Shown here piece by piece: positions 2,399-21,933 of a DNA stretch of 29,103 nt; the stretch's first letter is position 1, and each line of letters begins with the position of its first letter. The stretch covers positions 1-29,103 of IMG/VR virus record IMGVR_UViG_3300042395_000174, one strand, 5' to 3'. This DNA comes from a virus. The position numbers and the translations under genes are program-made. The notes beneath the pieces are model-generated. The model was not told the origin of the DNA. It saw nothing but the letters and a program-made list of their open reading frames with translations, and ran no database searches.

Positions 2399-4129
2399 AT
2401 GATCCCTGCCCGCCGTACCGCGCCTGCTCATCGCCCCCGTCCTCGCGCTCGGGTCGCACCGAAGGCTCCCCCGCCGGAACTGCGCCCCTTCCAGCGTGAG
2501 GGCGTGGACTTCCTCGCGACGAGCAACTGGCGGGTGCTGCTTGCGGACGCCCCCGGCTGCGGCAAGACGCCGCAAGTCCTCGTGGCGATGCGCGAGAACG
2601 CGAAGACGCTCTGCCCGATGCTCGTCGTCTGCCCGTCGTCCGTGGCGTGGAACTGGCGGCGGGAGGCGACACGCTGGGTGCCCGGCGTGAAGGTGCATGT
2701 CGTGGAAGGGTTCAGCGGGCCGCTGCCTCGCGGCGTCCATCTCACGATCTGCCCGTGGGACGTGCTGGCGGCGCGGCTCCCCGACCTCATGGCGCGGGGC
2801 TTCAAGTGTGTCGTCGCGGACGAAGCCCACTACGCGAAGGCGGGCGTCGAAACGCAGCGCGGGCGAGCGTTGCAGTCGATCTGCGCGACGGCTCCGCACG
2901 TCCTTCTTCTCTCGGGGACGCCGTTGGTGAACAACGCCGACGAACTGAACACCCTGCGCGGGATGTTCGGCTCGGAACCCCCGACGATGCTGCGGCGGCT
3001 GTTGGAGGACGTGGCTCCCGACATCCCCCCGAAGCGGCGCGTCACGCTCAAGACCACCATCCCCGACGACATCCGCGTGGAGTACGACAAGGCCAAGGAA
3101 GAGTTTGGGGAGTGGCTGGACGACTATCTTCCCCGCGTGCTGGACGACGCGGCGGCTGCGGAGAGCGCGGCGTCGAAGGCACTGGCAGCGGAGCCGTTGG
3201 CGAAGGTGGCCTACCTGCGGCGCATCCTCGGGCGCGGGAAGGTGCCGGGAACGGCGGCGTGGACGGCGAGCATGGTCAAGCGGGGCGAACCCGTCGTCGT
3301 GTTCGGCCAGTTTTCCGACGTGCTGGATCTGCTCGGGCAGGCCCTCTCACGACTCGCCATCCCCTTCGTGCGCCTCGACGGGACGGCGAGCCGCCAGCAG
3401 CGGCAGATCGCCATCGACGCCTTCCAAGCCGGAAAGGTGCCCGTTTTCATCGGCAGCATGGCCGCGAAGGAGGGCATCACGCTCACGAAGGCGCGGCACC
3501 TCCTGTTCATGGAGCGGTGGTACACCCCCGCCGCAGAGGAGCAGGCCGAAGACCGCATCCGGCGCATCGGGCAGACGCGCCCGACGACCATGTGGTATCT
3601 GCACGCCGACGACACCATTGACGAGCGCATCAGCGAGATCGTGGACGCGAAGCGCGGCATCGTCGCCGCGAACATCGGGACGGCGACCATCGAACACCTC
3701 GACGCCCCGACGGTCATGGATGCGTGGGAGCGGATGAAGACGCTGAAGGACGGCGTGCCCACCGTCGCGAGCAACCCCGACGCCTCGCTCCCGCTTCCGA
3801 AACTTCCCGACCAGCGCATCGTCCACGCCGTCGTCTTCGACGCGACCCGCTGGCCCATCCCCGACGTGCAGCGTGCGCTGCGGGCTGCGGGCTACCGGCA
3901 GCGCAAACTGGACCGGAAGGGGAACACCGTCCGCATTGAGATCCGCAGCAAGGGCGCGTTCCTCCCCGGCACCCTGCGGACGGCCCGCCTCGCCATTGAC
4001 TTCGGCATGGTCGCCGGGAAGCCCGCCCCGACGCAGCGCGCCCGCTCCGCTGCCTACCGCGCCATGAAGCGGCAGCAGCAGGCGCAGCGGCGCATGGCAT
4101 CGTCGCCGCTTCTGCGCCGCGCACGCTGA
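2399..4129 (+). CDS. SNF2-family DNA helicase/translocase with extra C-terminal domain
   Basis: This 576-residue superfamily 2 ATPase has the SNF2 motif order. Walker A is APGCGKT (residues 51-57, lysine 56), motif II is DEAH (141-144), motif III is LSGTP (171-175), motif V is a GSMAAKEGITL stretch, and motif VI is QAEDRIRRIGQ (382-392). The last motif is typical of SNF2 and SMARCAL1-like annealing or remodelling helicases. The likely job is ATP-driven movement on double-stranded DNA during phage replication or recombination. The first 25 residues are Arg/Pro-rich and probably disordered. After the helicase core comes an unrelated module (about 476-545), homologous to the end of the protein at 3-1943, and then a basic, Gln-rich tail. 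The GTGGGGG before the ATG serves as ribosome-binding site. The helicase call is firm; the cellular role is inferred. Confidence 0.93.
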   Translation: MIPARRTAPAHRPRPRARVAPKAPPPELRPFQREGVDFLATSNWRVLLADAPGCGKTPQVLVAMRENAKTLCPMLVVCPSSVAWNWRREATRWVPGVKVHVVEGFSGPLPRGVHLTICPWDVLAARLPDLMARGFKCVVADEAHYAKAGVETQRGRALQSICATAPHVLLLSGTPLVNNADELNTLRGMFGSEPPTMLRRLLEDVAPDIPPKRRVTLKTTIPDDIRVEYDKAKEEFGEWLDDYLPRVLDDAAAAESAASKALAAEPLAKVAYLRRILGRGKVPGTAAWTASMVKRGEPVVVFGQFSDVLDLLGQALSRLAIPFVRLDGTASRQQRQIAIDAFQAGKVPVFIGSMAAKEGITLTKARHLLFMERWYTPAAEEQAEDRIRRIGQTRPTTMWYLHADDTIDERISEIVDAKRGIVAANIGTATIEHLDAPTVMDAWERMKTLKDGVPTVASNPDASLPLPKLPDQRIVHAVVFDATRWPIPDVQRALRAAGYRQRKLDRKGNTVRIEIRSKGAFLPGTLRTARLAIDFGMVAGKPAPTQRARSAAYRAMKRQQQAQRRMASSPLLRRAR

Positions 4130-4667: not shown

Positions 4668-5773
4668 TGTCCACGGCGCGGCCCCCGTTCAGCGGGTACA
4701 CGGGCGTCGGCGGGGGCGGTGGCGGCGGCGCACCCGTCAACGCCGAATACCTCGTCCTCGCGCTCGACGGCACGCTCACGAACGAGCGTCGCTTCGTCCC
4801 GGCGGCACGGCTCGCGGCGACGGACGGCGGCGCGGGGGGCGACTACACCCTCGATCTCGCAGCGGTTGCGGGCGTCGCGGGTTCCTACACCTACTCGTCG
4901 CTCACGGTGGACGGCTACGGGCGCGTCACGGCGGCGAGCAGCGGCGTCGCCCCCGTCACCTCGGTCACGGTGGACGCGGGCGAACTGACGAACACGGGCA
5001 CCGCGACTGCCCCCGTGCTGGGGCTGGCGACAACGACGGTTGTCGCGGGTTCCTACACGACGGCAGACATCACCGTGGACGCCTTCGGGCGCATCACCGC
5101 AGCGGCGAACGGCACGGTCCCTGCCGCCTCGGGCTGGACGGACGGCGGCACCGTCGTCTACCTCACGACCTCGACCGATGACGTGAGCATCGGCAGCAAC
5201 ACCCCGGTCACGAACCGCAAGTTGAGCGTCTACAACACCGGGACGGATCTCGGCATCTCCGTCGTCACGCTCGCAAGCACGGACAATGTGCTGGAAACCG
5301 GCGTCACGGCAGAGGCGAACCTTCGCTTCAGCATCAACGGCGCGGGGTCGCACCTGTGGGGGGCAGGCGGGGGCAGCGCGCTCGACGTGCGCCTCTACCG
5401 CTCGGCAACGAAGACCATCACCGTAGACGACGGCGCAGCGGGTCCGGCGGTCTTCTCCGTGCTGGGGCAGACGAGCATTCAGCGCGTGCAGTGGTCCACG
5501 GTCACGACGGCGGCATCGCCCTACGCGGTGACCGCCACCGATATGGTGGTCCTCGCAAACCCCGGTGGGGCGCAGACCGTCACGCTGCCAGCGGCAGCGG
5601 CGGGCCAACTGGGGCGGCAGATCGTCGTCAAGCGCGTCAACACGTCGGTCAACGTCGTCACGGTCAACGCGACCAGCGGCAACATCGACGGCGCGGCCTC
5701 CCTTGCTCTCCCCGCCGGTTCCTACGCATCCATCACCGTCGTCTGTGACGGTACAAACTGGTGGGTCATCTAA
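4667..5773 (+). CDS. Tail-fibre-like protein with two internal repeats
   Basis: This is a 368-residue Gly/Thr/Ala/Val-rich protein. A glycine run (residues 15-21) is followed by two copies of a repeat of the form AGSYT....(L/I)TVD.(Y/F)GR(V/I)TAA..G at about residues 71-93 and 127-149, 56 residues apart. This repeat is common in the shafts of phage tail fibres. The C-terminal third (about 265-368) looks like a compact beta domain ending in GTNWWVI, a type of ending seen in fibre tips. The gene begins at the ATG within TAATG and ends in another TAATG, so it is translationally coupled to both neighbours. The likely role is host-surface contact or baseplate/fibre structure. Which receptor is bound cannot be seen. 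Confidence 0.85.
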   Translation: MSTARPPFSGYTGVGGGGGGGAPVNAEYLVLALDGTLTNERRFVPAARLAATDGGAGGDYTLDLAAVAGVAGSYTYSSLTVDGYGRVTAASSGVAPVTSVTVDAGELTNTGTATAPVLGLATTTVVAGSYTTADITVDAFGRITAAANGTVPAASGWTDGGTVVYLTTSTDDVSIGSNTPVTNRKLSVYNTGTDLGISVVTLASTDNVLETGVTAEANLRFSINGAGSHLWGAGGGSALDVRLYRSATKTITVDDGAAGPAVFSVLGQTSIQRVQWSTVTTAASPYAVTATDMVVLANPGGAQTVTLPAAAAGQLGRQIVVKRVNTSVNVVTVNATSGNIDGAASLALPAGSYASITVVCDGTNWWVI

Positions 5774-8881: not shown

Positions 8882-9436
8882 CTACTCGTCCACGTCCTCG
8901 GTGTCCATCGACGCGAGGACGGTGAGAAACTCCTCGCGCACCAGCGACGCGACGACGGTCGCGAGGGCTTCGTCCATCTCTGGTCCCAACTCCTCCAGCA
9001 GATCCTCCAGATCTCGGACGGGGATGGACAGGCGCATCGAGAAGGTGCGGGTGTTGATCGACGTTTCGATGGCCGTGATGTCGCGGACCCGCTCGCGGAG
9101 CGTCATGCCTTCGCGGAGCGAGGTCGCGGCGTCGCGCAGAAACGCCCACACATCGCCCATGAAGCCGGTTGGCTTCGGCGGCTCGGCTTTGCCGCTGGCC
9201 TTGAACCCACTGGCGGCAGGGCGCGGGGGCACACCCCATGCGCCCGCCCACGGGGGCGGTGGGGGCGGGACCGCTTCGGGCGGCTCGGGGGCGTCCAGCG
9301 GGGCGCGGACGTTCGGATACTTCAGCAGCAACTTCTCCAGCACGCTTTTCGCGGCAGCGCGCTCCCCTTCGGTCGCGCCCTTCTCCACCAGCGTCTTCAG
9401 CAGTCGCGCCTTCCGCAGTGCTTCTTCGTCGGTCAT
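8882..9436 (-). CDS. DUF2786-like protein
   Basis: The product has 184 residues. The first 45 (DEEALRKARLLKTLVEKGAT, then ERAAAKSVLEKLLLKYP) match the pattern of DUF2786, a short helical domain often found in phage and plasmid proteins with unknown roles. A proline-rich linker containing a PPPPPP run (about 50-70) follows. The rest is a helical, acidic region ending in a run of Asp/Glu. The start ATG overlaps the stop of the recombinase gene by one nucleotide (TGATG), so the two are translationally coupled. A role alongside DNA metabolism is suggested by the neighbourhood only. Confidence 0.83.
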   Translation of the reverse strand: MTDEEALRKARLLKTLVEKGATEGERAAAKSVLEKLLLKYPNVRAPLDAPEPPEAVPPPPPPWAGAWGVPPRPAASGFKASGKAEPPKPTGFMGDVWAFLRDAATSLREGMTLRERVRDITAIETSINTRTFSMRLSIPVRDLEDLLEELGPEMDEALATVVASLVREEFLTVLASMDTEDVDE

Positions 9437-10224
9437 CACAGTCCCTTCGACTTGCCCACGGTACGCGCAAGGTCGTCGGTGGACGGATGGAGGTAGCGCA
9501 TCGTCGTCGCGACGGCCTCGTGGCCCAGCAGGGCTTGCAGCGAGCGCACGTCCACGCCTTCGGAGAGGAGCGAGGTCGCGTAGGTGTGGCGCAGAACGTG
9601 CGGGGAGAGGTCCGCGATGCCGTGCTTGTCGCGGAGGATGCGCGTCACACGGCGCACGGCAGCGGGGGTGATCGGCCCACCGCGCCCGGCGAACAGGTAG
9701 TCCGCGTCGGCGGGGAGCGCGTCGATGTGGGCGCGGAGGATGGCGGTGCCCGTTTCGCCCAGCGGGACGATGCGCGGTTTGTCGCCTTTGCCTCGGATGC
9801 GGAGAATCAGCCGCTCGCCGCGCTCGGTCACTTCTTCGCGGCGCAGGTTGCACGCCTCGGAGATTCGCAGCCCGCAGCGCGGCAGCAACAGGAGGATGGT
9901 GCGGACAGGCTCGTTCGCTTCGATCTCCACTGCCTCGTAGTAGGCGGCGAGGTCTTCGGGCGACAGGGCTTCACGGGTCGCCCCCTTGCGGCCTCGGATG
10001 CGTGGGAGCAGGGCACGAACCTCTTCCTCGCTCTTCCCCTCGCTCTCCAGCCGATGTCGCACGGCGGCGCGAGCAGGGGCCAGCGTGCCCATCGGACGGC
10101 GTTCGGCCACCAACCCCTTGAGCCAGCCCACGGGGTCATCGCCCGCTTGGGTGGCAAGGTGCTGGTACGTCTTGCGGGTGTTCGGAAGCAGCCCGCGCTC
10201 GGAGAGGTGACGGTCGAAGGTCAT
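9436..10224 (-). CDS. Tyrosine recombinase (XerC/D-like integrase)
   Basis: This 262-residue protein is the size of the short XerC/D-like recombinases. The catalytic set is complete: arginine 120 in CGLRISEA, a lysine in the GKGDKPR beta-hairpin, HVLRH (His209, Arg212), the histidine in LGHEAVATT, and the nucleophile Tyr244 in MRYLHP. The N-terminal about 90 residues form the core-binding SAM-like domain. Such enzymes cut and rejoin DNA at specific sites; here that may mean integration, dimer resolution or inversion. The ATG at 10224 overlaps the stop of the zincin gene as ATGA, which favours it over an upstream ATG. I see no excisionase gene. The one tRNA gene in the window lies 16 kb away, so integration is plausible but not proven. 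Confidence 0.95.
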   Translation of the reverse strand: MTFDRHLSERGLLPNTRKTYQHLATQAGDDPVGWLKGLVAERRPMGTLAPARAAVRHRLESEGKSEEEVRALLPRIRGRKGATREALSPEDLAAYYEAVEIEANEPVRTILLLLPRCGLRISEACNLRREEVTERGERLILRIRGKGDKPRIVPLGETGTAILRAHIDALPADADYLFAGRGGPITPAAVRRVTRILRDKHGIADLSPHVLRHTYATSLLSEGVDVRSLQALLGHEAVATTMRYLHPSTDDLARTVGKSKGL

Positions 10225-10607
10225 CGGTGAAGGTGCCCCGGTCGCGGCCACGTTCCCGGCGCGAGGGTCTGGACGTGGCGGGCGTCGTAGTTCAGCCGGT
10301 CGCCCCAGATCGCCTCGGCCAGTTCGTCGGCGTCGCGTTCGGAATGATCCTCGTGCCCGTGGAACAGGAGGATGCCGTGGGCAAGTTCATGCCGCAGCAG
10401 CGCGTGGATCACGTCGTCCGGCTCGTCCTCGATCTTCGGCGCGACGATGACGTTGGCCTCGTTGGGCGCGACCAAACCGCACATGGCGAAGTTTCGCTCG
10501 TGCGGGAAGTCGCGAGGGTCGCCACGCGACAAGCGGCACCGCAGCCCCGGTGCGTGGGGTGCGATGCCGCTTGCGAGGTCACGGAAGATGGTGCGAGTAC
10601 GCTTCAC
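10221..10607 (-). CDS. Zincin-like metallopeptidase (HExxH protein)
   Basis: This 128-residue protein contains HELAH (His73, Glu74, His77), the zinc-binding and catalytic motif of zincin metallopeptidases. An ERDADELAEAIWG helix (90-102) follows, whose acidic residues could give the third ligand. This arrangement resembles ImmA/IrrE-type and other phage-encoded short zincins that cleave regulatory proteins or have unknown targets. The start is GTG with GGGG just upstream, 13 nt after the ATPase stop. The gene overlaps the recombinase by 4 nt (ATGA). Coupling to a recombinase and an HTH gene would suit a regulatory protease, but that is inference. Confidence 0.85.
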   Translation of the reverse strand: MKRTRTIFRDLASGIAPHAPGLRCRLSRGDPRDFPHERNFAMCGLVAPNEANVIVAPKIEDEPDDVIHALLRHELAHGILLFHGHEDHSERDADELAEAIWGDRLNYDARHVQTLAPGTWPRPGHLHR

Positions 10608-10620
10608 CCCCGCACTATAA

Positions 10621-12366
10621 CTACTTGGCCTCCCCCACGGCGTCGAAGCCCGCGTCGTCGCCCTTCTTCGCCTTCGTTGCCTTCGGCGCGGAGAGGTCGA
10701 TCACCGTCCAGCCCTTCGGGGTGCGACCCGCCGGGGCCACCGGGGAGCAGAGGATGACCTGTCCCGGCGCGTTGCCCAGCGCACGCATCACGGCGGCGAG
10801 CGTTTCGGCGTCGAACGCACGGTCCTCGGGGGTGAGGATGGACAGGTTCGCCTCGTCGTCGTCGGTCACCGCAGCCGCGAGGGCCAGCGTGAGCCGCGCC
10901 CACTCCGCGCCGGAGAGAGCGGTGTGCAGCGCGCCGTCGCGGACGAAGCCAAACTGGCACACGTCCTTCCCGTTCGCGGAGAGGACGAGGTCGAAGGCGT
11001 CCTCGGTGGGCAAGTAGGACTGCACCTTCGCCACAAAGGCAGTGCGGGCACGCTCCAGCACGCCCCCGATGGCGTCCTCGATGGCGGCGTGCAGATCGGT
11101 GTAGAGCCGCTGCCGGGCCGTGAGGTCACGGGCGCGAGCCTTCGCGGCGCGGACGTTCTGCCACGCGGCACGGCTCCCCTCCAGCGCACGCACCTGTTCC
11201 TCCGCAGCGCGGAGCGCGGAGAGCGGGTCGGGGTGCGGAGCGGGGAGAGCGGCGATGCGTTCGTCCTCCGCGACGGCGATGCGGAAGCGGTGGACGGCTT
11301 CCTCTGCGAGCCGCTGGGCCTCGGGCAGCGCAGCGGTGAGGCGAGCCCGCCGCTCGCGGTTCTCCAGCACCGTCACGTCGCCCTTCGCGGCGTTGGCGAG
11401 GGCTTCGGCACGCTGGAACATCAGCCCATGCGCCCCGTGGGGGATCGGGGACGCGCAGACCAGACACTCGGCGGCGTCCTTCGCCGCGTGGAACACCAGC
11501 ATCTGCGTCAGGGCGTCGCGCACACGGGCCACCTCGGCGTTCGGCTGGGCGATGACGTGGTTGTCGGCCACCGTGAGCCGCGTCACCTCGGCGTCGATCT
11601 CGGCGTAGGCTTGCACCTTCGCCTCGGCGTAGCCGCGCAGCGCGGCGACGTTGGGGCGCACCGTCGGGGCCGTCGCCGCCGATGCGGCCACCGCAGCCTC
11701 GCGGACACGCTGCCGCGCACGCTCCATCTCGTCGTCCGTCGGCTCGGCTCCCAGCGTGGCCCCGATCTGCTCGGCCAGCGAGGTCGCGGCCTTCGCGTCG
11801 CTGCTCGCGTTGCGGCTCTGCTTCCCCGCAGCCTCACGGGCATCAAGGAGGATCTGCGCCGGGTAGCCGAACAGGGGGCGGCAGAGGTCGATGTACGCGG
11901 CGTGCAGATCCTCGGGGATCAGCCCCATGACCGTCGCCTCGCTCACGGACGCGCCGATGCGCCCGACGAGCCACGCCCGCACCGTCGCCGGGGCACCCGA
12001 CAACGCCTCGCGAACCTGCCGCACGGGGAACGACGGCTTCAGATCCGCAGGGAGCGTCGTCGTCGCCTCGCGTGCGCCGCCCGTCTTCGCGTTGCGCTCG
12101 CACCGCCACTCGACGGCTCGCCCGTCGGAGAGGGTCGCCTTGCTCCACAAGGCGTCCGCATCAGCGGGGGCGAGGGCGAGGAGGTCGATCCCCTTCGCCA
12201 CCTCGGTGCGCCCGACGACATCGGACGCCCGCCCGTTGAGCGCGAGTTCGACGGCGTTGACGACGCTGGACTTCCCCGATCCGTTGGGTCCGATGATGAG
12301 CGTCAGACGGCCCAGTTCCGTCTTCGCGCCCTTCTTCACGTTGCTCTCGATGTTCTTGACGTACAC
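10621..12366 (-). CDS. Rad50/SbcC/RecN-like ATPase (internal-start product)
   Basis: This 581-residue reading starts at GTG 12366, eight nt after a perfect AAGGAGG, below its own promoter (12404-12432). It is an ABC-type SMC/Rad50-like ATPase. Walker A is GPNGSGKSS (residues 26-34) near the N-terminus. A long helical, Ala/Glu/Arg-rich coiled coil spans about 175-440, with a CLVC (301-304) at its middle that matches the position and form of a Rad50 zinc hook. A C-terminal lobe has an ALSGAEWARLTLALA signature and a hydrophobic Walker B-like strand (NLSILTPEDRAFD) with changed acidic residues. Rad50 and SbcC pair with a Mre11/SbcD nuclease, but no such gene is in the window. It probably acts in DNA end processing or recombination-dependent replication. 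The frame is also open upstream into the methyltransferase. Confidence 0.85.
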   Translation of the reverse strand: MYVKNIESNVKKGAKTELGRLTLIIGPNGSGKSSVVNAVELALNGRASDVVGRTEVAKGIDLLALAPADADALWSKATLSDGRAVEWRCERNAKTGGAREATTTLPADLKPSFPVRQVREALSGAPATVRAWLVGRIGASVSEATVMGLIPEDLHAAYIDLCRPLFGYPAQILLDAREAAGKQSRNASSDAKAATSLAEQIGATLGAEPTDDEMERARQRVREAAVAASAATAPTVRPNVAALRGYAEAKVQAYAEIDAEVTRLTVADNHVIAQPNAEVARVRDALTQMLVFHAAKDAAECLVCASPIPHGAHGLMFQRAEALANAAKGDVTVLENRERRARLTAALPEAQRLAEEAVHRFRIAVAEDERIAALPAPHPDPLSALRAAEEQVRALEGSRAAWQNVRAAKARARDLTARQRLYTDLHAAIEDAIGGVLERARTAFVAKVQSYLPTEDAFDLVLSANGKDVCQFGFVRDGALHTALSGAEWARLTLALAAAVTDDDEANLSILTPEDRAFDAETLAAVMRALGNAPGQVILCSPVAPAGRTPKGWTVIDLSAPKATKAKKGDDAGFDAVGEAK

Positions 12367-13923
12367 GACAGGTGCCTCCTTGCGTGCGGTTGGTGGACTA
12401 GACATCATAGCCGCACCGTTGTCACCCGTCAACGGGGGCGGCGCGTATGCGGTGCGAAACACGGTGAGCGGCGGCGGGGCGGTCTTCGCGAACCCGTCAC
12501 CCTGCGCGGCCCCGATGCGGGCGCGGGCGATGGCGAGGTAGTCCTCGCTCATCTCGATCCCGACGAAGCGCATCCCCTCCGTCACGGCGGCGATGCCCGT
12601 AGACCCGCTCCCCATGAAGGGGTCCAGCACGACGCCGCCTTTGCGCGTGACCAGCCGGACAAGGTGGCGCATCACGGCCACGGGCTTGACCGTGGGGTGA
12701 TGGTTGCGGACCTTGCCGTCCTCGCTCCCCCGCACGGGAAGGTCGCCGCAGCCCTCCTCGCGCTCACCCCGCGACGCCTTCGCGGCGTAGATGAACGGGA
12801 CGAGGTCATCGGCCTCGATGGGGAGGTTGTTGAAGTAGCGGGACGCGCCATCGCCGCCGCTCTGCGCGTCCATCGCGGCCACCGGGCACCCCGGCGCGCA
12901 CCCGTTCTCGCCGCAGTCGGGGCCGTGCGACAGGATGACGTTCGCGGGCCAGCGGCCTCCGTGGTGATTGGTCGGCTGAAACCCTACCTGTTTCTTATAG
13001 ACCTCACGGGCGTTGTTTGTCGGCTGAAAGGGACGCATATGCTCTCCACCGCTCTCGACGCGGCACCCGTCGATGTTCATGGCCCCGGTGCCGTACTTAA
13101 GCACGTTCCCCGCGACGGTGCCGATCAACGGGCGGCGAGCCACGACGACAGGCTCCCATGCGGGCTTGAGCGCGGTCCCCCATCCCCCCCATGCGAGGGC
13201 CTCGGGGTCGGTCACGTTGACTTTCCCACCCGTCCACGCCTGTTCACCGTTTGCCATCGTGCGGGCAGATGCGTCTTGCCATTGGTTGCCGGGAGCGGAG
13301 AGCGTGCCGCTCTCGACGCTCAAGTTGGGGTCAGATGCGGAATACCTTGCGCCCCTGCCCCTCTTCATCCCCTCGATGGAGCGGGACACGGAGAGCGACT
13401 TCGGGAAGCCGCTGCCGTATTGCCATGAGAGGCAGTCACGAATCTCGAATCCGGCGTCCTCGATGGCGACCGTCATGCGGTGGTAGGTGCGGGTGCCGCT
13501 GAAGGCGAGCAGGTAGCCCCCCGGCTTCAGCACCCGCAGCACCTCGCGCCACGTTTCGGGCCGGAAGGCCACGTCGCCGCCGTCCCACTGTTGACCCATG
13601 AACCCGCGTGTGGAACGGGCGTAGACCCCGCTCCCGCCTTCGGGAACGATCACGGGAGCGGAGTTCTCCTTGCCGAACCGCTCCACGACGGACGTGAGAT
13701 GGTAGGGCGGGTCGCACACGACGGCGTCGATGCTGCCCGCTTCCAGCGTCGGCAGCATCGCAAGGCAGTCGCCCAGATGAAGGACTACGTCGGAAGGTCG
13801 CTCGCCGTCGGGGCTACGAGGTCCGGCGTCGTCAGCAGGGCCTCCAGCGTCCGCAGCGCGTCCTCGTCGCTTGGACGCTGCGGGCGTGCCTCGCCCTTCG
13901 CCCAGCGGTAGATCGTGCGCCAC
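10621..13923 (-). CDS. DNA methyltransferase joined in frame to the Rad50-like ATPase
   Basis: A single open frame runs from the methyltransferase into the ATPase. The methyltransferase half (about residues 50-490 from GTG 13923) has GDCLAMLPTL, then DPPY (Asp71-Tyr74), a target-recognition region, and DPFMGSGSTG (434-443) near its end. The DPPY-before-FxGxG order is that of beta-class enzymes making N6-methyladenine or N4-methylcytosine. Residues 490-519 are a proline-rich linker encoded by what looks like a normal promoter and ribosome-binding site, and the ATPase begins at 520. The start is unclear. No ATG, GTG or TTG lies in frame between 13923 and the first conserved motif. GTG 13923 is inside the HTH gene with only a weak GGCGGG before it. 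The ATG at 14061 lies in the -10 box. The fusion may reflect a lost stop codon or a sequence error. Confidence 0.72.
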   Translation of the reverse strand: MAHDLPLGEGRGTPAASKRRGRAADAGGPADDAGPRSPDGERPSDVVLHLGDCLAMLPTLEAGSIDAVVCDPPYHLTSVVERFGKENSAPVIVPEGGSGVYARSTRGFMGQQWDGGDVAFRPETWREVLRVLKPGGYLLAFSGTRTYHRMTVAIEDAGFEIRDCLSWQYGSGFPKSLSVSRSIEGMKRGRGARYSASDPNLSVESGTLSAPGNQWQDASARTMANGEQAWTGGKVNVTDPEALAWGGWGTALKPAWEPVVVARRPLIGTVAGNVLKYGTGAMNIDGCRVESGGEHMRPFQPTNNAREVYKKQVGFQPTNHHGGRWPANVILSHGPDCGENGCAPGCPVAAMDAQSGGDGASRYFNNLPIEADDLVPFIYAAKASRGEREEGCGDLPVRGSEDGKVRNHHPTVKPVAVMRHLVRLVTRKGGVVLDPFMGSGSTGIAAVTEGMRFVGIEMSEDYLAIARARIGAAQGDGFAKTAPPPLTVFRTAYAPPPLTGDNGAAMMSSPPTARKEAPVVYVKNIESNVKKGAKTELGRLTLIIGPNGSGKSSVVNAVELALNGRASDVVGRTEVAKGIDLLALAPADADALWSKATLSDGRAVEWRCERNAKTGGAREATTTLPADLKPSFPVRQVREALSGAPATVRAWLVGRIGASVSEATVMGLIPEDLHAAYIDLCRPLFGYPAQILLDAREAAGKQSRNASSDAKAATSLAEQIGATLGAEPTDDEMERARQRVREAAVAASAATAPTVRPNVAALRGYAEAKVQAYAEIDAEVTRLTVADNHVIAQPNAEVARVRDALTQMLVFHAAKDAAECLVCASPIPHGAHGLMFQRAEALANAAKGDVTVLENRERRARLTAALPEAQRLAEEAVHRFRIAVAEDERIAALPAPHPDPLSALRAAEEQVRALEGSRAAWQNVRAAKARARDLTARQRLYTDLHAAIEDAIGGVLERARTAFVAKVQSYLPTEDAFDLVLSANGKDVCQFGFVRDGALHTALSGAEWARLTLALAAAVTDDDEANLSILTPEDRAFDAETLAAVMRALGNAPGQVILCSPVAPAGRTPKGWTVIDLSAPKATKAKKGDDAGFDAVGEAK
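12404..12432 (-). promoter_or_regulatory. Dyad promoter inside the fused frame, before the ATPase
   Basis: Read on the minus strand, TTGACG (12427-12432) is separated by 17 nt from TATGAT (12404-12409), a near-consensus sigma-70 promoter. The -35 box begins the dyad TTGAC-N4-GACAA. A perfect AAGGAGG (12375-12381) and GTG 12366 follow. The same bases encode in-frame amino acids of the methyltransferase-ATPase linker. Confidence 0.82.
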
Positions 13924-14042
13924 GACACCCGCCCGTCGAGCAAGTCCGCTATCTGCATCGCGGAGTACCCGCGATCCATCAGCGTCGTCACGATCTGCTG
14001 CGCTGGCGGCATCGGCTCTGTTGTCTCGTCCGTTGTTGCCAT
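13785..14042 (-). CDS. Small helix-turn-helix DNA-binding protein
   Basis: This 85-residue protein has a helix-turn-helix at about residues 22-50: GYSAMQIADLL, a turn at DGRVS, then a recognition helix WRTIYRWAKGEARP. This pattern is like small phage and plasmid repressors or Sigma70-region-4-like HTH proteins. The C-terminal part is a short helix and a disordered tail. ATG 14042 follows an AAAAAGGG stretch and sits about 19 nt below the -10 box of its own dyad promoter, so autoregulation is possible. It is the only clear small HTH regulator in the window and a candidate for binding the shared dyad; that is inference. Its 3' half overlaps the uncertain 5' end of the methyltransferase frame. 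Its TAG stop falls just where the methyltransferase homology begins. Confidence 0.82.
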   Translation of the reverse strand: MATTDETTEPMPPAQQIVTTLMDRGYSAMQIADLLDGRVSWRTIYRWAKGEARPQRPSDEDALRTLEALLTTPDLVAPTASDLPT

Positions 14043-14060
14043 CGTCGTACCCTTTTTGCA

Positions 14061-14089
14061 TGGTTAGCCTCTCTGTTGCCTCTCGTCAA
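14061..14089 (-). promoter_or_regulatory. Dyad promoter of the HTH gene
   Basis: On the minus strand TTGACG (14084-14089) is 17 nt from TAACCA (14061-14066). The dyad TTGAC-N4-GGCAA starts at the -35 box. It lies between the end of the polymerase operon and the HTH start at 14042. The -10 is weaker than in the other sites. Confidence 0.75.
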
Positions 14090-14097
14090 CCTTGACC

Positions 14098-14496
14098 CTA
14101 TGCCGTGGCATCCCCGGTCACCAGTTCCCAGCCCGCCTTCCACGAGGTCGGGTCAGCCTGCACGACGCCGATGACCCGGCGCACGCCCACGCTCCCGGCG
14201 AGCAGCACCGGCTTCCCGTTGCGAAGCGCGCACTCCACGATCTGCGCCGTCGCCTTGCCGACGCAGGCACGGGGGCAGATGATCGCGTCGTAGCGGGCAC
14301 GCCCGTTGATGTCCCGGCCCCCCGCCACGTCCTCGGCCCAGCCGTTCCACCCGCCGCAGCGGGCGAAGTTCGCGTGCCAATCGGTCAGCCCGTCTACCAC
14401 CTCGACGCCGGGAGCCTGCGCCTCGATCTCGGCCTTCCACTCGGCCACCTTGTCCGCACTCTCGTCCTTCGCCGTCGCGAGAAAGACCCGCTTCAT
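14098..14496 (-). CDS. Conserved-looking small protein, possibly deoxyribosyltransferase-like fold
   Basis: This 132-residue protein starts at ATG 14496, preceded by AAGGAGG and overlapping the polymerase stop as ATGA. An in-frame ATG five codons upstream lies before the ribosome-binding site and is less likely. It begins with a beta strand, KRVFLATAKDES. A later YDAIICPRACVGKATAQIVECALRNGKPVLL segment alternates a strand, a loop and a helix. That pattern loosely recalls nucleoside 2-deoxyribosyltransferase or DUF4406-type proteins, where a conserved acid is catalytic; I cannot fix such a residue here. The last gene of the polymerase operon, it could work on nucleotides, but the assignment is weak and best read as unknown. 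Confidence 0.78.
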   Translation of the reverse strand: MKRVFLATAKDESADKVAEWKAEIEAQAPGVEVVDGLTDWHANFARCGGWNGWAEDVAGGRDINGRARYDAIICPRACVGKATAQIVECALRNGKPVLLAGSVGVRRVIGVVQADPTSWKAGWELVTGDATA

Positions 14497-17270
14497 CCTA
14501 CCTCCTTCCATGTGAAGCCCACGTCAGCCGTGGCCGTGAACGTGACGCCGGGGAGCGACGGGTCGCTCTGCCGCATGGCGTCCTCGATGATCTGCTGGAC
14601 TTGCCACGGGATCGACCCCTCGGGCACCGTCCACTTCTTCGCCTCGGGGTCGTACACCGCCGTGTCTTGCGGACATTCCACGACGAGCGCGTCGTGCGTC
14701 TGCGTGATGAGGCCCGTCCCCGCGCCCCACTTGTGCAGCGGGATGGCGTCCGCAATCTTGATCATGGCCCGGTTCATCAGCGACGACGCAGCCCCTTGGA
14801 TGGGGAAGTTCACGATCTCGTTCAGATCCTCGCCGTTGAGGCAGTCGCGACGACGGCCCATGACCGGCTCGGAGATGAAGCCCTGCGCCCGAAAGGTCGC
14901 CAGTTCTCGGTCCCAGCCCAGCGGAAACTCCTTCGCGCCCTCCAGCCACGCACTGTGCATGGCGCGAACCTCGCGGAGCGTGAGGCCCAAGTAGACCAAC
15001 TCGCCTTTGTCGTCCTCGGTCAACTGGAGCAGCCGCAGAACCGTTTCGACGGACCCGCCGTATTGCGAAGCGTACTGCACCATCTTCGCGAGGTTTCGCA
15101 TCCGGTAGGCGTCCTCGGTCCACTTGCCCGTCGGCGCGAACAGGAACGGGATGCGACGGTCGCCGGGGCGCGGGTAGCGGTGCCCCTCGGGGAAGCCCTT
15201 CGCCGCCGCGAAGCGGTCCCCGAACACGGCCATCGCCGTCATGGAGTGAGGGTCGGCACCCGCTGCGAAGGCGTCGAGGTACAACTTGCACCCCCAGCGG
15301 GCAGCGGCGATCCGCAACTCCAACTGGTCGGCGTCCGCGCCGACAAGGACGTGCCCCGGCTGCGCTGTGACGAGCGAGCGCAGCCCCTTCGGGAAGTTCT
15401 GCGCGTTGATGGGCTTGGACGACGAGAGCCGCCCCGTCACCGTGACGTGCGCGTTGTAGCCGGGGCGCATCCGGCCATCGGCCCACACGATGCCCCGCTT
15501 GACGTAGCCGCGCTTCTCGCGCTCGCCGCGCTCCTCGTCCGTTTCGTCGTCGTCCCAGCCCACGCCGTCCACGGCGTCGGTCATGGGGCGCAACTTGACG
15601 ATGTACGTCCCCAACTCCTTCTGCGCGCTTCGGTAGTTCCGCAGCGTCTTGAGGAACGTCTTCTGCTGCTCCGTCAGTTTCGGGATCATCAAGCAGCCCC
15701 GAATCACGTCGTCCGACGTGCTTGGGTCGCCGCTCCCGGTGAAGCGGAGGTCGTCGTCAATGGGCGGCTGGAGATCCCACGTCCCGAACAGGAGGCGACG
15801 CAGGGCGTGCGTGCTGCCGGGGTTGAGGTCGGGAAGGCCGGAAGCGTCGCGGAGCGCGGCCCGCAGTTCCAGCACCTCGCGCATCTTCGACTTCTCCTTC
15901 GCGGCGCGGGCGGGCTGATCCACGAACATGCCCACGGTGTGCATGTCGCAGCAGATCCGCTGGATGCGATGGTCGCACGCGAGAAGGTGGTCTTGCCCCC
16001 GCACCCGCGTCGCGTCGTAGAGCGGGGGCAGCACCCGCGCCGTCACGGCCACGTCGAGGGCGCAGTAGCGGTGCAACTCCTCGTCGGTTTCGGAGTCGAA
16101 CGCCAACTTGCGCCCCTCCCTGTCCGTCTTCCACGCATGGATGTCGGTGTACATGGAGCCGACGAACGCGAGGTTGTGGGGCAACTCCGACTCGACCAAA
16201 CGGTGCAGAAGGATGGTGTCGAGCGTAGGCATCGGGTCGATGCCGTACTGCGCCCGCACCACCATGCGGTCATAGGAACCCGCGTTGTGGCCCACCTTCA
16301 CCACCTCGGGGTGCGTGAAGAACGCCCGCAGCACCTCGTGGATGCGGGCTTCGTCGCTCGGCGTGTAGAAGCGGCTCACGCCGTCCTTCGCGAGCAGCCC
16401 GACAAGGTGAACCTCATCGGCGTCCCCGATGCCGATGCACCGGACGTTCGCCGTCAGCGGTTCGATGCCGTCCGTTTCGTAGTCGTAGGCCAGCACCGCG
16501 CCGGGGCGCAGAAGGAACGCCGCCAACTGCTCGGGGGTCGGCTGATAGACGACACTCGGCTCCCGCCATGCCAGTGAGCCTCGGAACCATCGGATGGCGC
16601 GGCCCACGTCGGAGCGGAACGGGACCGTCCACTTCGGCATGTGGGTGACGAAGCCGGGGGAGAGGGTCGGCATCACCTTGACCCGCCCACCCGTGTTCGC
16701 CTCGCTCGCCTCGCTGCCCACCACGCGGAGCGTGTTCGCAGCGGGGTCGTAGTGCAGCCGCCCCTCCATCATGCCGCCCCGCAGATCGAGGATGGACGCC
16801 CCCGCGCCCGTCACCGCTTTCGTCGCGGTACTCCCCATGAGGATGATCTTATCGAAACGGGCCAACTCGGACGCGAGCCGGGGGCGGCAGCAGTCAATGG
16901 GCGACGGCTCCAGCGGCAGGGCGGGGTAGCCGTCCTTCGCACGCTGCGCGTTCTCCCGCCGACGCTCGGCGTTGCGGCTCTGGATCTGCGCCAGCAGCCG
17001 CTTGAGGTCGTTCCCCGGCGGCTGGCACGCCACTGTCGTCGTCCAGAAGGCGTCGCCGCGTCGTAGGCTTTGCGCGGCCAGTGCGCGCATGGCCTCTTGG
17101 TTCGACGGCCCGACGAAGGGACGCCCCTCGCGCACTTCCACGTCGCCGGGACTGTCCCCGACGACGGCGATGCGGGCACCGTCGTTGTCCTCGGCGGGGA
17201 CGGGGCCACCCTGTCGGCACGTCGCCAGCGGGCACACGTCGCAGCGTGCGCCTCGGAAGGATTCCGTCAT
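14493..17270 (-). CDS. Uracil-DNA glycosylase (family 4-like)/family A DNA polymerase fusion
   Basis: This 925-residue protein has three modules. Residues 1-230 match family 4 [4Fe-4S] uracil-DNA glycosylases: Cys10 and Cys13 in CDVCPL, Cys82 in VACQPPGND, Cys127/128 before RPRLASEL, and the motif GDSPGDVEVREGRPFVG (38-54). The usual HPS of the second active-site motif reads LSP within PTLSPGFVTH, so catalysis may be altered. Residues about 255-430 are a 3'-5' exonuclease with DYE (Asp263, Glu265), HNAGSYD and YCALD. The rest is polymerase family A: motif A DADQLELR (Asp646), motif B with RNLAK (Lys729) and QYGG, motif C HDALVVE (His859, Asp860). It is the likely phage replicase. ATG 17270 overlaps the upstream stop as ATGA, which is preferred over an ATG four codons earlier. 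Confidence 0.95.
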   Translation of the reverse strand: MTESFRGARCDVCPLATCRQGGPVPAEDNDGARIAVVGDSPGDVEVREGRPFVGPSNQEAMRALAAQSLRRGDAFWTTTVACQPPGNDLKRLLAQIQSRNAERRRENAQRAKDGYPALPLEPSPIDCCRPRLASELARFDKIILMGSTATKAVTGAGASILDLRGGMMEGRLHYDPAANTLRVVGSEASEANTGGRVKVMPTLSPGFVTHMPKWTVPFRSDVGRAIRWFRGSLAWREPSVVYQPTPEQLAAFLLRPGAVLAYDYETDGIEPLTANVRCIGIGDADEVHLVGLLAKDGVSRFYTPSDEARIHEVLRAFFTHPEVVKVGHNAGSYDRMVVRAQYGIDPMPTLDTILLHRLVESELPHNLAFVGSMYTDIHAWKTDREGRKLAFDSETDEELHRYCALDVAVTARVLPPLYDATRVRGQDHLLACDHRIQRICCDMHTVGMFVDQPARAAKEKSKMREVLELRAALRDASGLPDLNPGSTHALRRLLFGTWDLQPPIDDDLRFTGSGDPSTSDDVIRGCLMIPKLTEQQKTFLKTLRNYRSAQKELGTYIVKLRPMTDAVDGVGWDDDETDEERGEREKRGYVKRGIVWADGRMRPGYNAHVTVTGRLSSSKPINAQNFPKGLRSLVTAQPGHVLVGADADQLELRIAAARWGCKLYLDAFAAGADPHSMTAMAVFGDRFAAAKGFPEGHRYPRPGDRRIPFLFAPTGKWTEDAYRMRNLAKMVQYASQYGGSVETVLRLLQLTEDDKGELVYLGLTLREVRAMHSAWLEGAKEFPLGWDRELATFRAQGFISEPVMGRRRDCLNGEDLNEIVNFPIQGAASSLMNRAMIKIADAIPLHKWGAGTGLITQTHDALVVECPQDTAVYDPEAKKWTVPEGSIPWQVQQIIEDAMRQSDPSLPGVTFTATADVGFTWKEVG

Positions 17271-17572
17271 GCGGTGCCCCACGGGTCGATGCCGTCGTCG
17301 TCCTCATCGCCCCGGTAGTGCATGATGGGCGTGCCGGGTCCGGCGTAGGTGCCGACGACGTTGAACTCGACCCACTCGACGGCGTCCTCCTCCGTCCACT
17401 CGGGGTTCATGGCGAGGAAGGCATTGACCACGGCGTCGTAGTCGTAGACGGCGACCGCGACGTTGTCCCGCAGCCCGATGCCCACGATGGCGGCGTCCAG
17501 CCCGTCCCACAGGACGGCCTCGGGGTTGCCGAACGCGAGCATGGCGCGAAGGGTTTCGTGCGGCGCGCTCAC
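17267..17572 (-). CDS. Conserved small phage protein of unknown function
   Basis: This 101-residue acidic protein starts at GTG in a GTGA overlap with its upstream neighbour and ends in an ATGA overlap with the polymerase. Its pattern (LDAAIVGIG, VAVYDYDAVVNAF, WTEEDAVEWVEFNVVGTYAGPGTPIMHY) is one I know from many small proteins of phages and plasmids with no assigned function. There are no cysteines, membrane segments or enzyme motifs. Tight coupling to the polymerase suggests a role in or near replication, but only by position. Confidence 0.85.
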   Translation of the reverse strand: MSAPHETLRAMLAFGNPEAVLWDGLDAAIVGIGLRDNVAVAVYDYDAVVNAFLAMNPEWTEEDAVEWVEFNVVGTYAGPGTPIMHYRGDEDDDGIDPWGTA

Positions 17573-20895: not shown

Positions 20896-21933
20896 TCAGA
20901 TCGTGAGCGAGGACGTGATGACGATGCGGCGGCGCAGGTTGACCTTGCCGTCGTCGCTCACGGTGACGCTCTCCACGCCCTCGGCGCGCATCGCCTCCAG
21001 CAACAGGCGCAACGCCTCCAGCGTGTCCTTCGCGGCCTCGCCGGGGAGCAGCGCGGCGACGGGAGCGGGCGACGGGGGCGCGGGAGCCTCGGGGACCGGG
21101 GCAACGTGCGAGACATCGAACTCGCTGCCCACCTTTGCGGGCACGGGGGCCGTGAGCGGGAACTGCCCGACGGCAGCGCGCCAGCCACCCGCCCGCGTGT
21201 GCGCCGTGCCCGGCGCACGGGTCGGGCTGGCGTCCTCTGCGGTGGGGACGACGCCCAGCGTGGCGCACACGGACTCGTAGAGGGCGCGGTTCACGATGCG
21301 CGTCGCCGCCGCGCCCTGCCCCGCCTTGATGCCCAACGCGAGCCGGGCGGCGCGGACGGGCTGGAAGAGGGCCGTCGCGTTGTGGTCGGTCTTCTCCGCG
21401 ATCTCGGCCACGGTGAACCACGGGTTCGCGGCGACGAGCGGCAGCACGCTCTGATAGACCTTGTCCTCGGTGGGCTTCAGACGCAGGGGGGCGGGGGGAA
21501 CGGTGACGACGGGGACGCGCATGAGGGACTCCTGTTCAGCGGGTTGATCGAGCGGGGGAAGGTCGAGAATGACGGACGCGGGGAGCGACATGATCGCGGC
21601 TTGCGTCACGTCGATGGGCTGCGGCTTGCCCTCGGCCACGAGAGTCAGAGCCGGGAAGCCCTGCCTCTCCAGCACCGGGGACATCGCGGCCTTGCGGTGG
21701 GGTCCGCACACGAGCGGGACACCCGCCTCGCGTGCGCGCTCCATCGCGGGCTTCGACAGTTTGTGGGAGCAGTTGTCCGTCGCGACGACGACGACGCCGC
21801 AGCCAGCCGGGATGCTGCCCAAGTGCGAGGTCGTGGGCCACCACCACGCCACCTCAATGCCGTGAGCGAGGAGCGTCGTGTCCATCTGCCGCCGCCACGT
21901 CGTGCGGGAGCCGACGAGTAGAGCCGCGATCAT
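20896..21933 (-). CDS. DUF2325 protein with winged-helix-like middle domain
   Basis: This 345-residue protein starts at ATG 21933 in a 4-nt overlap with its upstream neighbour. The frame is open 200 codons further upstream, but that part is Arg/Pro-rich shadow sequence. Residues 1-85 (MIAALLVGSR, LLAHGIEVAWWWP, CGVVVVATDNCSHKL, REAGVPLVCGP) follow the DUF2325 pattern, a Rossmann-like small domain with an invariant D.CSH-type motif and no known activity. Residues about 155-205 look like a winged helix (PWFTVAEIAEKTDHNATALFQPVRAARLALGI). Pro/Ala-rich linkers join these to an amphipathic C-terminal helix (about 300-345). The fusion suggests a sensor or DNA-binding regulator, an inference. A terminator follows the gene. 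Confidence 0.8.
   Translation of the reverse strand: MIAALLVGSRTTWRRQMDTTLLAHGIEVAWWWPTTSHLGSIPAGCGVVVVATDNCSHKLSKPAMERAREAGVPLVCGPHRKAAMSPVLERQGFPALTLVAEGKPQPIDVTQAAIMSLPASVILDLPPLDQPAEQESLMRVPVVTVPPAPLRLKPTEDKVYQSVLPLVAANPWFTVAEIAEKTDHNATALFQPVRAARLALGIKAGQGAAATRIVNRALYESVCATLGVVPTAEDASPTRAPGTAHTRAGGWRAAVGQFPLTAPVPAKVGSEFDVSHVAPVPEAPAPPSPAPVAALLPGEAAKDTLEALRLLLEAMRAEGVESVTVSDDGKVNLRRRIVITSSLTI

Follow-up and report, generated by a model that had tools for sequence, protein, structure and literature searches.

The closest described relatives of the proteins considered here fall into two groups. Orphan DNA methyltransferases (MTases) of the PF01555/phrog_67 kind occur in phages such as Rhodobacter phage RcRhea and Caulobacter phage DMCA, where the catalytic DPPY precedes motif I, and ATPases of the Rad50/SbcC and SMC type (PF13476, PF02463, phrog_77) are characterised by an N-terminal Walker A motif, a CxxC apex in a long helical middle and a C-terminal LSG signature. 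In the IMG/VR virus contig IMGVR_UViG_3300042395_000174, of which the whole analysed stretch (the window; 29,103 bases, 68% G+C) is considered here, one protein of each group is encoded in a single open frame on the minus strand, and the ATPase's own signals (promoter, Shine-Dalgarno sequence, start codon) lie inside that frame. A sequence-only reading of the window had proposed that two separate genes were joined by the loss of a stop codon. Comparison with related phages suggests a different history, to which we give a probability of about 0.62: the ATPase would be an independent gene, MTase cassettes would have been inserted upstream of it, and free ATPase and some fusion protein would be the products. 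The fused frame would then probably be a by-product of inserting a gene into GC-rich DNA, odd as the repeated absence of normal start and stop codons is.

The frame (14061..10621, minus) is free of stop codons for 1146 codons and holds both MTase and ATPase, as the sequence-only reading had claimed. Residues 91-534 match phage DNA methyltransferases (phrog_67, PF01555), and a P-loop ATPase of the Rad50/SMC kind begins at about residue 568, with AAA_23 and SMC_N matches from about residue 579. If the MTase is translated from the start of its homology, the predicted fusion frame covers 10621..13788 (minus), about 1055 residues. A second assembly from another dataset (IMGVR_UViG_3300042289_000474) was 100% identical over 13.7-16.5 kb, the junction included, with one base different in 16.8 kb. 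A base error in the junction was rejected because this independent assembly is identical there.

Viral contigs scanned with the ATPase yielded three distinct loci only, those of the window phage and of contigs L003 and L004, and two genome scans gave no further relatives of the locus. Cultured phages gave no match at the nucleotide level, and at the protein level none to either the ATPase or the small helix-turn-helix (HTH) protein encoded upstream of the MTase. A distant relative of the HTH protein, L094, has different surroundings and was uninformative for the locus. On L004, whose ATPase is 72% identical to that of the window, the HTH gene ends in TAG and is followed after 13 nt by TTGACA-17-TATGAA, AAGGAGG and the ATG of the ATPase, with no MTase between. 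L003 (ATPase 68-69% identical) carries in the same slot an MTase of a different family (DPPW; best match phrog_359, not phrog_67), which is also open into the ATPase. This comparison marks the ATPase as an independent gene, and the MTase as an exchangeable cassette that sits after the HTH stop and before the ATPase promoter. The earlier view that the two genes were separate in origin is supported by both the MTase-free L004 and the swapped MTase of L003.

The ATPase gene (10621..12366, minus; GTG start at 12366; 581 residues) has a full set of signals of its own. Its promoter, TTGACG-17-TATGAT (12404..12432, minus), lies inside the open frame, is conserved in L003 and L004 and is the sole sigma-70-like match in 4 kb (0.1 expected), and the Shine-Dalgarno sequence AAGGAGG (12375..12381, minus), 8 nt before the GTG, is conserved in the three phages. 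The sequence-only reading had pointed to these elements within the frame; they are present and look functional. The start codon is GTG in L003 and ATG in L004, and each of the three phages keeps an interval of 66 nt, free of insertions and deletions, from -35 box to ATPase start.

The promoter belongs to a phage-wide TTGAC-N4-GGCAA family. Sites with TTGAC-N4-G[AG]CAA and a CTATNAT-like -10 box number 19 on four related contigs (0-0.1 expected per contig), and in the three gene-called contigs 16 of 17 lie just upstream of a same-strand gene start, including those of the HTH protein and the ATPase. The wider form TTG[AC]C-N4-G[AG]CAA is found in the window at 12432, 14089, 19911, 22708 and 23140 (all minus), the last being a perfect palindrome (TTGCC-GAAT-GGCAA), and the promoter/operator family is also present in L003, L004, L007 and L107. 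Over the -35 box the motif forms a near-palindrome, TTGMC-N4-GGCAA, which suggests an operator; the conserved HTH protein, or some other repressor, may bind the family.

The 66 nt from the -35 box to the start codon (12367..12432, minus) form the linker of the fused frame, and were compared between the window and L003, both of which read them as protein. The linker differs at 4, 8 and 5 sites in codon positions 1, 2 and 3, as against 31, 21 and 77 in the first 200 ATPase codons (Fisher p = 0.02; 0.0008 when the three pairs, which are not independent, are pooled). Its codon-usage score is -6.0, compared with +8 just upstream and +34 at the start of the ATPase. Because codon-position bias is absent and codon usage is non-coding, the linker evolves as regulatory DNA and not as protein. 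The linker role that the sequence-only reading gave to the promoter bases stands in one respect, as they are open in frame; tests of third-position bias and codon usage gave no sign of selection on them as protein.

The MTase region (12433..13788, minus) shows homology from about 13788 to about 12504, followed by 24 stop-free codons. It matches the PF01555 profile (E 2.8e-28, 99.8 bits vs a curated cut-off of 26.7), its translation contains CDPPYH (catalytic D/N-PP-Y/F/W) and the motif I DPFMGSGSTG, and it shares the domain and motif order of the phage orphan enzymes named above, with 42-44% identity over 92-98% of the query. It is thus a member of the PF01555 N6/N4 DNA methyltransferase family, with predicted activity. 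Most of the PF01555 homologues examined (IMG/VR loci) stop soon after the ARIxxA end, whereas the window MTase has no such stop.

At 68% GC it is not unlikely for a linker by itself to lack stops: even on L004, where there is no MTase, the frame of the ATPase is open for 39 codons ahead of the ATG. The telling feature is an MTase without a stop, lying in the phase left open by the TTGAC box. A stop-less MTase insert would in one phase be closed at once by the TGA of TTGAC; in another it would be closed after two codons in the window phage, but not in L003; in the remaining one it would be open into the ATPase. The chance of the open phase is about 1 in 3 per insertion.

The proposed course of events begins with an L004-like ancestor, in which a small HTH gene and a 13-nt spacer would have been followed by the ATPase, a phage gene in its own right with conserved promoter, Shine-Dalgarno sequence and start codon. 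MTase cassettes of different subfamilies would have entered the spacer in different phages, and in the window phage and L003 the inserted MTase would have had no stop before the ATPase promoter and would have come to lie in the open phase. Because the MTase has no stop and is in the phase that TTGAC leaves open, ribosomes translating it would run through promoter, Shine-Dalgarno sequence and GTG into the ATPase, giving a fusion of about 1050 residues, and the internal promoter and Shine-Dalgarno sequence would give free ATPase of 581 residues. The earlier suggestion of a fusion protein alongside a free ATPase is in this way supported, as predicted products. We infer that the event was an insertion and not a loss, with both products being made and the fusion tolerated without a selected role.

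The small HTH protein of 85 residues is encoded at 13785..14042 (minus) with coding codon usage, from an ATG after AAAAAGGG to a TAG stop at 13787-13785. It is 82-84% identical in L003 and L004 and matches HTH_23 with E 2e-4, under the Pfam cut-off. Its promoter/operator, TTGACG-17-TAACCA (14061..14089, minus), contains TTGAC-N4-GGCAA and has homologous sites in L003 (5045) and L004 (2621). The expected first codon of the MTase is GTA, which runs into the HTH stop to give GTAG and lies in the -1 phase (13785..13788, minus). L003 has this overlap too (5320-5323, -1 phase), and in both MTases the homology begins at this GTA. No ATG, GTG or TTG was found at or near the expected MTase start in the window phage or L003. 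The first canonical codons downstream, ATG 13758 in the window MTase (in frame) and GTG 5362 in L003, would shorten the enzymes. Nearly all PF01555/phrog_67 homologues (IMG/VR loci) have a canonical start shortly before LHLGDC, and those homologues of the L003 MTase whose alignments reach its first residues have their starts immediately ahead of them. Upstream of 13788 the codon-usage score is -20 (non-coding) in the MTase frame and +20 in the HTH frame. The MTase start at GTG 13923, as assumed by the sequence-only reading, is very unlikely, lying within the HTH gene where the HTH frame is coding and the MTase frame is not. A start at ATG 14061 was also rejected, as this codon shares bases with the -10 region of the HTH promoter and its frame is non-coding.

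These genomes have 183 junctions between same-strand genes, and at 46 of them the genes overlap by 4 nt, always as ATGA or GTGA, according to a gene caller that accepted ATG, GTG and TTG starts only. The GTAG geometry can thus be read as translational coupling with a non-canonical codon; it is that of the phage-operon overlaps, except that GTAG gives GTA and not ATG or GTG. In Streptomyces, sigR has been proven to start with GTC (PMC5472188), a precedent in GC-rich bacteria for a gene that begins with a codon other than ATG, GTG or TTG, so that initiation at GUA or GUC in the phages is conceivable. The sigR start was established by protein data (PMC5472188), whereas the GTA/GTC of the phage MTases is assigned by position only, and no precedent for GUAG re-initiation was found in the literature. 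An in-frame slippery heptamer (X XXY YYZ) before the stop is absent from the HTH genes of all three phages, RNA structure at the HTH-MTase junction is weak (z -1.9), and choosing codons at random would leave the -1 frame over the HTH gene open in 25-32% of cases. The MTase could start by a -1 frameshift from the HTH gene, by non-canonical GUA/GUC re-initiation at GUAG, or at the short start ATG 13758.

Several points weigh against cassette insertion as an accident. The collections searched hold three distinct loci only, and the polarity of the comparison is unrooted, so that L004 could have lost an MTase. Both cassettes lack a canonical start as well as a stop, which plain gene insertion leaves unexplained. 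An open 3' phase together with a -1 5' phase in two MTases of different families has a chance of about 1 in 81, if two independent insertions are assumed with all phases random and equally likely; the arrangement may therefore be non-accidental, a suggestive figure but not a decisive one. The missing starts and stops and the shared phases favour a reading that we regard as unlikely on balance, in which the place between HTH gene and ATPase is a selected slot, without start or stop, that takes various MTases in frame. The MTase would be reached by a -1 frameshift or GUAG re-initiation and made as a fusion to the ATPase, with the internal promoter supplying free ATPase, and the fusion, perhaps also to the HTH protein, would tether the ATPase to methylated or MTase-bound DNA. 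That two MTases of different families share their phases at both ends and begin their homology at the same GTA agrees with such a slot, but the linker has neither codon-position bias nor coding codon usage, the junction offers no slippery heptamer and little RNA structure, chance alone would not rarely leave the -1 frame of the HTH gene open, and L004 shows none of the arrangement.

It is improbable that two genes which had long been neighbours were recently joined by the loss of one stop codon. Such a loss would account for an open frame in which both genes look intact and the ATPase retains its own signals, and most MTase homologues do end within about 20 codons past the run-on region. Joining by stop loss found no support among the relatives, however: L003 with its other MTase is open as well, L004 has no MTase, and an HTH-MTase-stop-ATPase order was not found among the three distinct loci. 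Insertion of a cassette beside an independent gene is the more likely cause. The MTase might also be a decaying, unexpressed remnant that has lost start and stop, with only the HTH protein and the ATPase expressed. The missing canonical start and stop would fit, but DPPY, motif I and coding codon usage are all retained in a long, unbroken frame, and in L003 a different MTase would have to have decayed and still left an open frame, which makes decay very improbable. An artefact of sequencing or assembly, a natural concern with a metagenomic contig, is hardly credible given the identical second assembly and the same open arrangement in L003. The sequence-only reading had named stop codons in relatives with a base error in this assembly as the case against itself; no stop-bearing relative was found and the two assemblies agree. 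Its observation is confirmed, and its interpretation is partly supported.

In the alignment the ATPase has the Walker A motif GPNGSGKSS, the apex CLVC and the ABC signature LSGAEWARLT, in the head-coil-coil-head layout of Rad50/SbcC-like proteins, and weak PDB matches to Rad50 and SMC chains were obtained. It differs from these proteins in its small size (581 residues) and in its Walker B motif, where the acidic pair is replaced (ILTPED, not LDE-type). Compared by eye against the motif, hhhhDE is absent and SILTPED, SVLTPED and AVLTPED stand in the three phages; an ATPase with such a Walker B may be weak or non-hydrolysing. Helices flank the CxxC apex in a low-confidence structure prediction (predicted local distance difference test score 54), which was too poor for a fold search. 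No Mre11/SbcD-like partner was detected among the window proteins scanned, these being part of the open reading frames of a window that is itself a fragment.

By the gene content of the window, the source phage is temperate-looking. A tyrosine integrase (9436-10251), an SNF2-type helicase (2399-4129), a PD-(D/E)XK exonuclease and a Sak4-like protein are encoded, together with a family A DNA polymerase (14493-17282, minus) that carries, in the same protein, a 3'-5' exonuclease and at its N-terminus a domain of the uracil-DNA-glycosylase family, and is 86% identical in L003. Between ATPase and integrase lies a small conserved protein (10221-10607, minus) with a zinc-protease-like HELAH (HExxH) motif and no family match, and a protein of the replication block (20896-21933, minus) has a weak DUF2325 match under the Pfam cut-off.

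The locus presents a phage gene joined to its neighbour across a working-looking promoter, with no sign of selection on the joined protein, so that the same bases are promoter, Shine-Dalgarno sequence and, accidentally or otherwise, linker. Gene callers will give one 1000-residue protein, or a false GTG start, for what are two genes. If MTases without start and stop are not accidental, they would suggest that GC-rich phages have an unusual way of starting translation and that MTases can be plugged in at this site.

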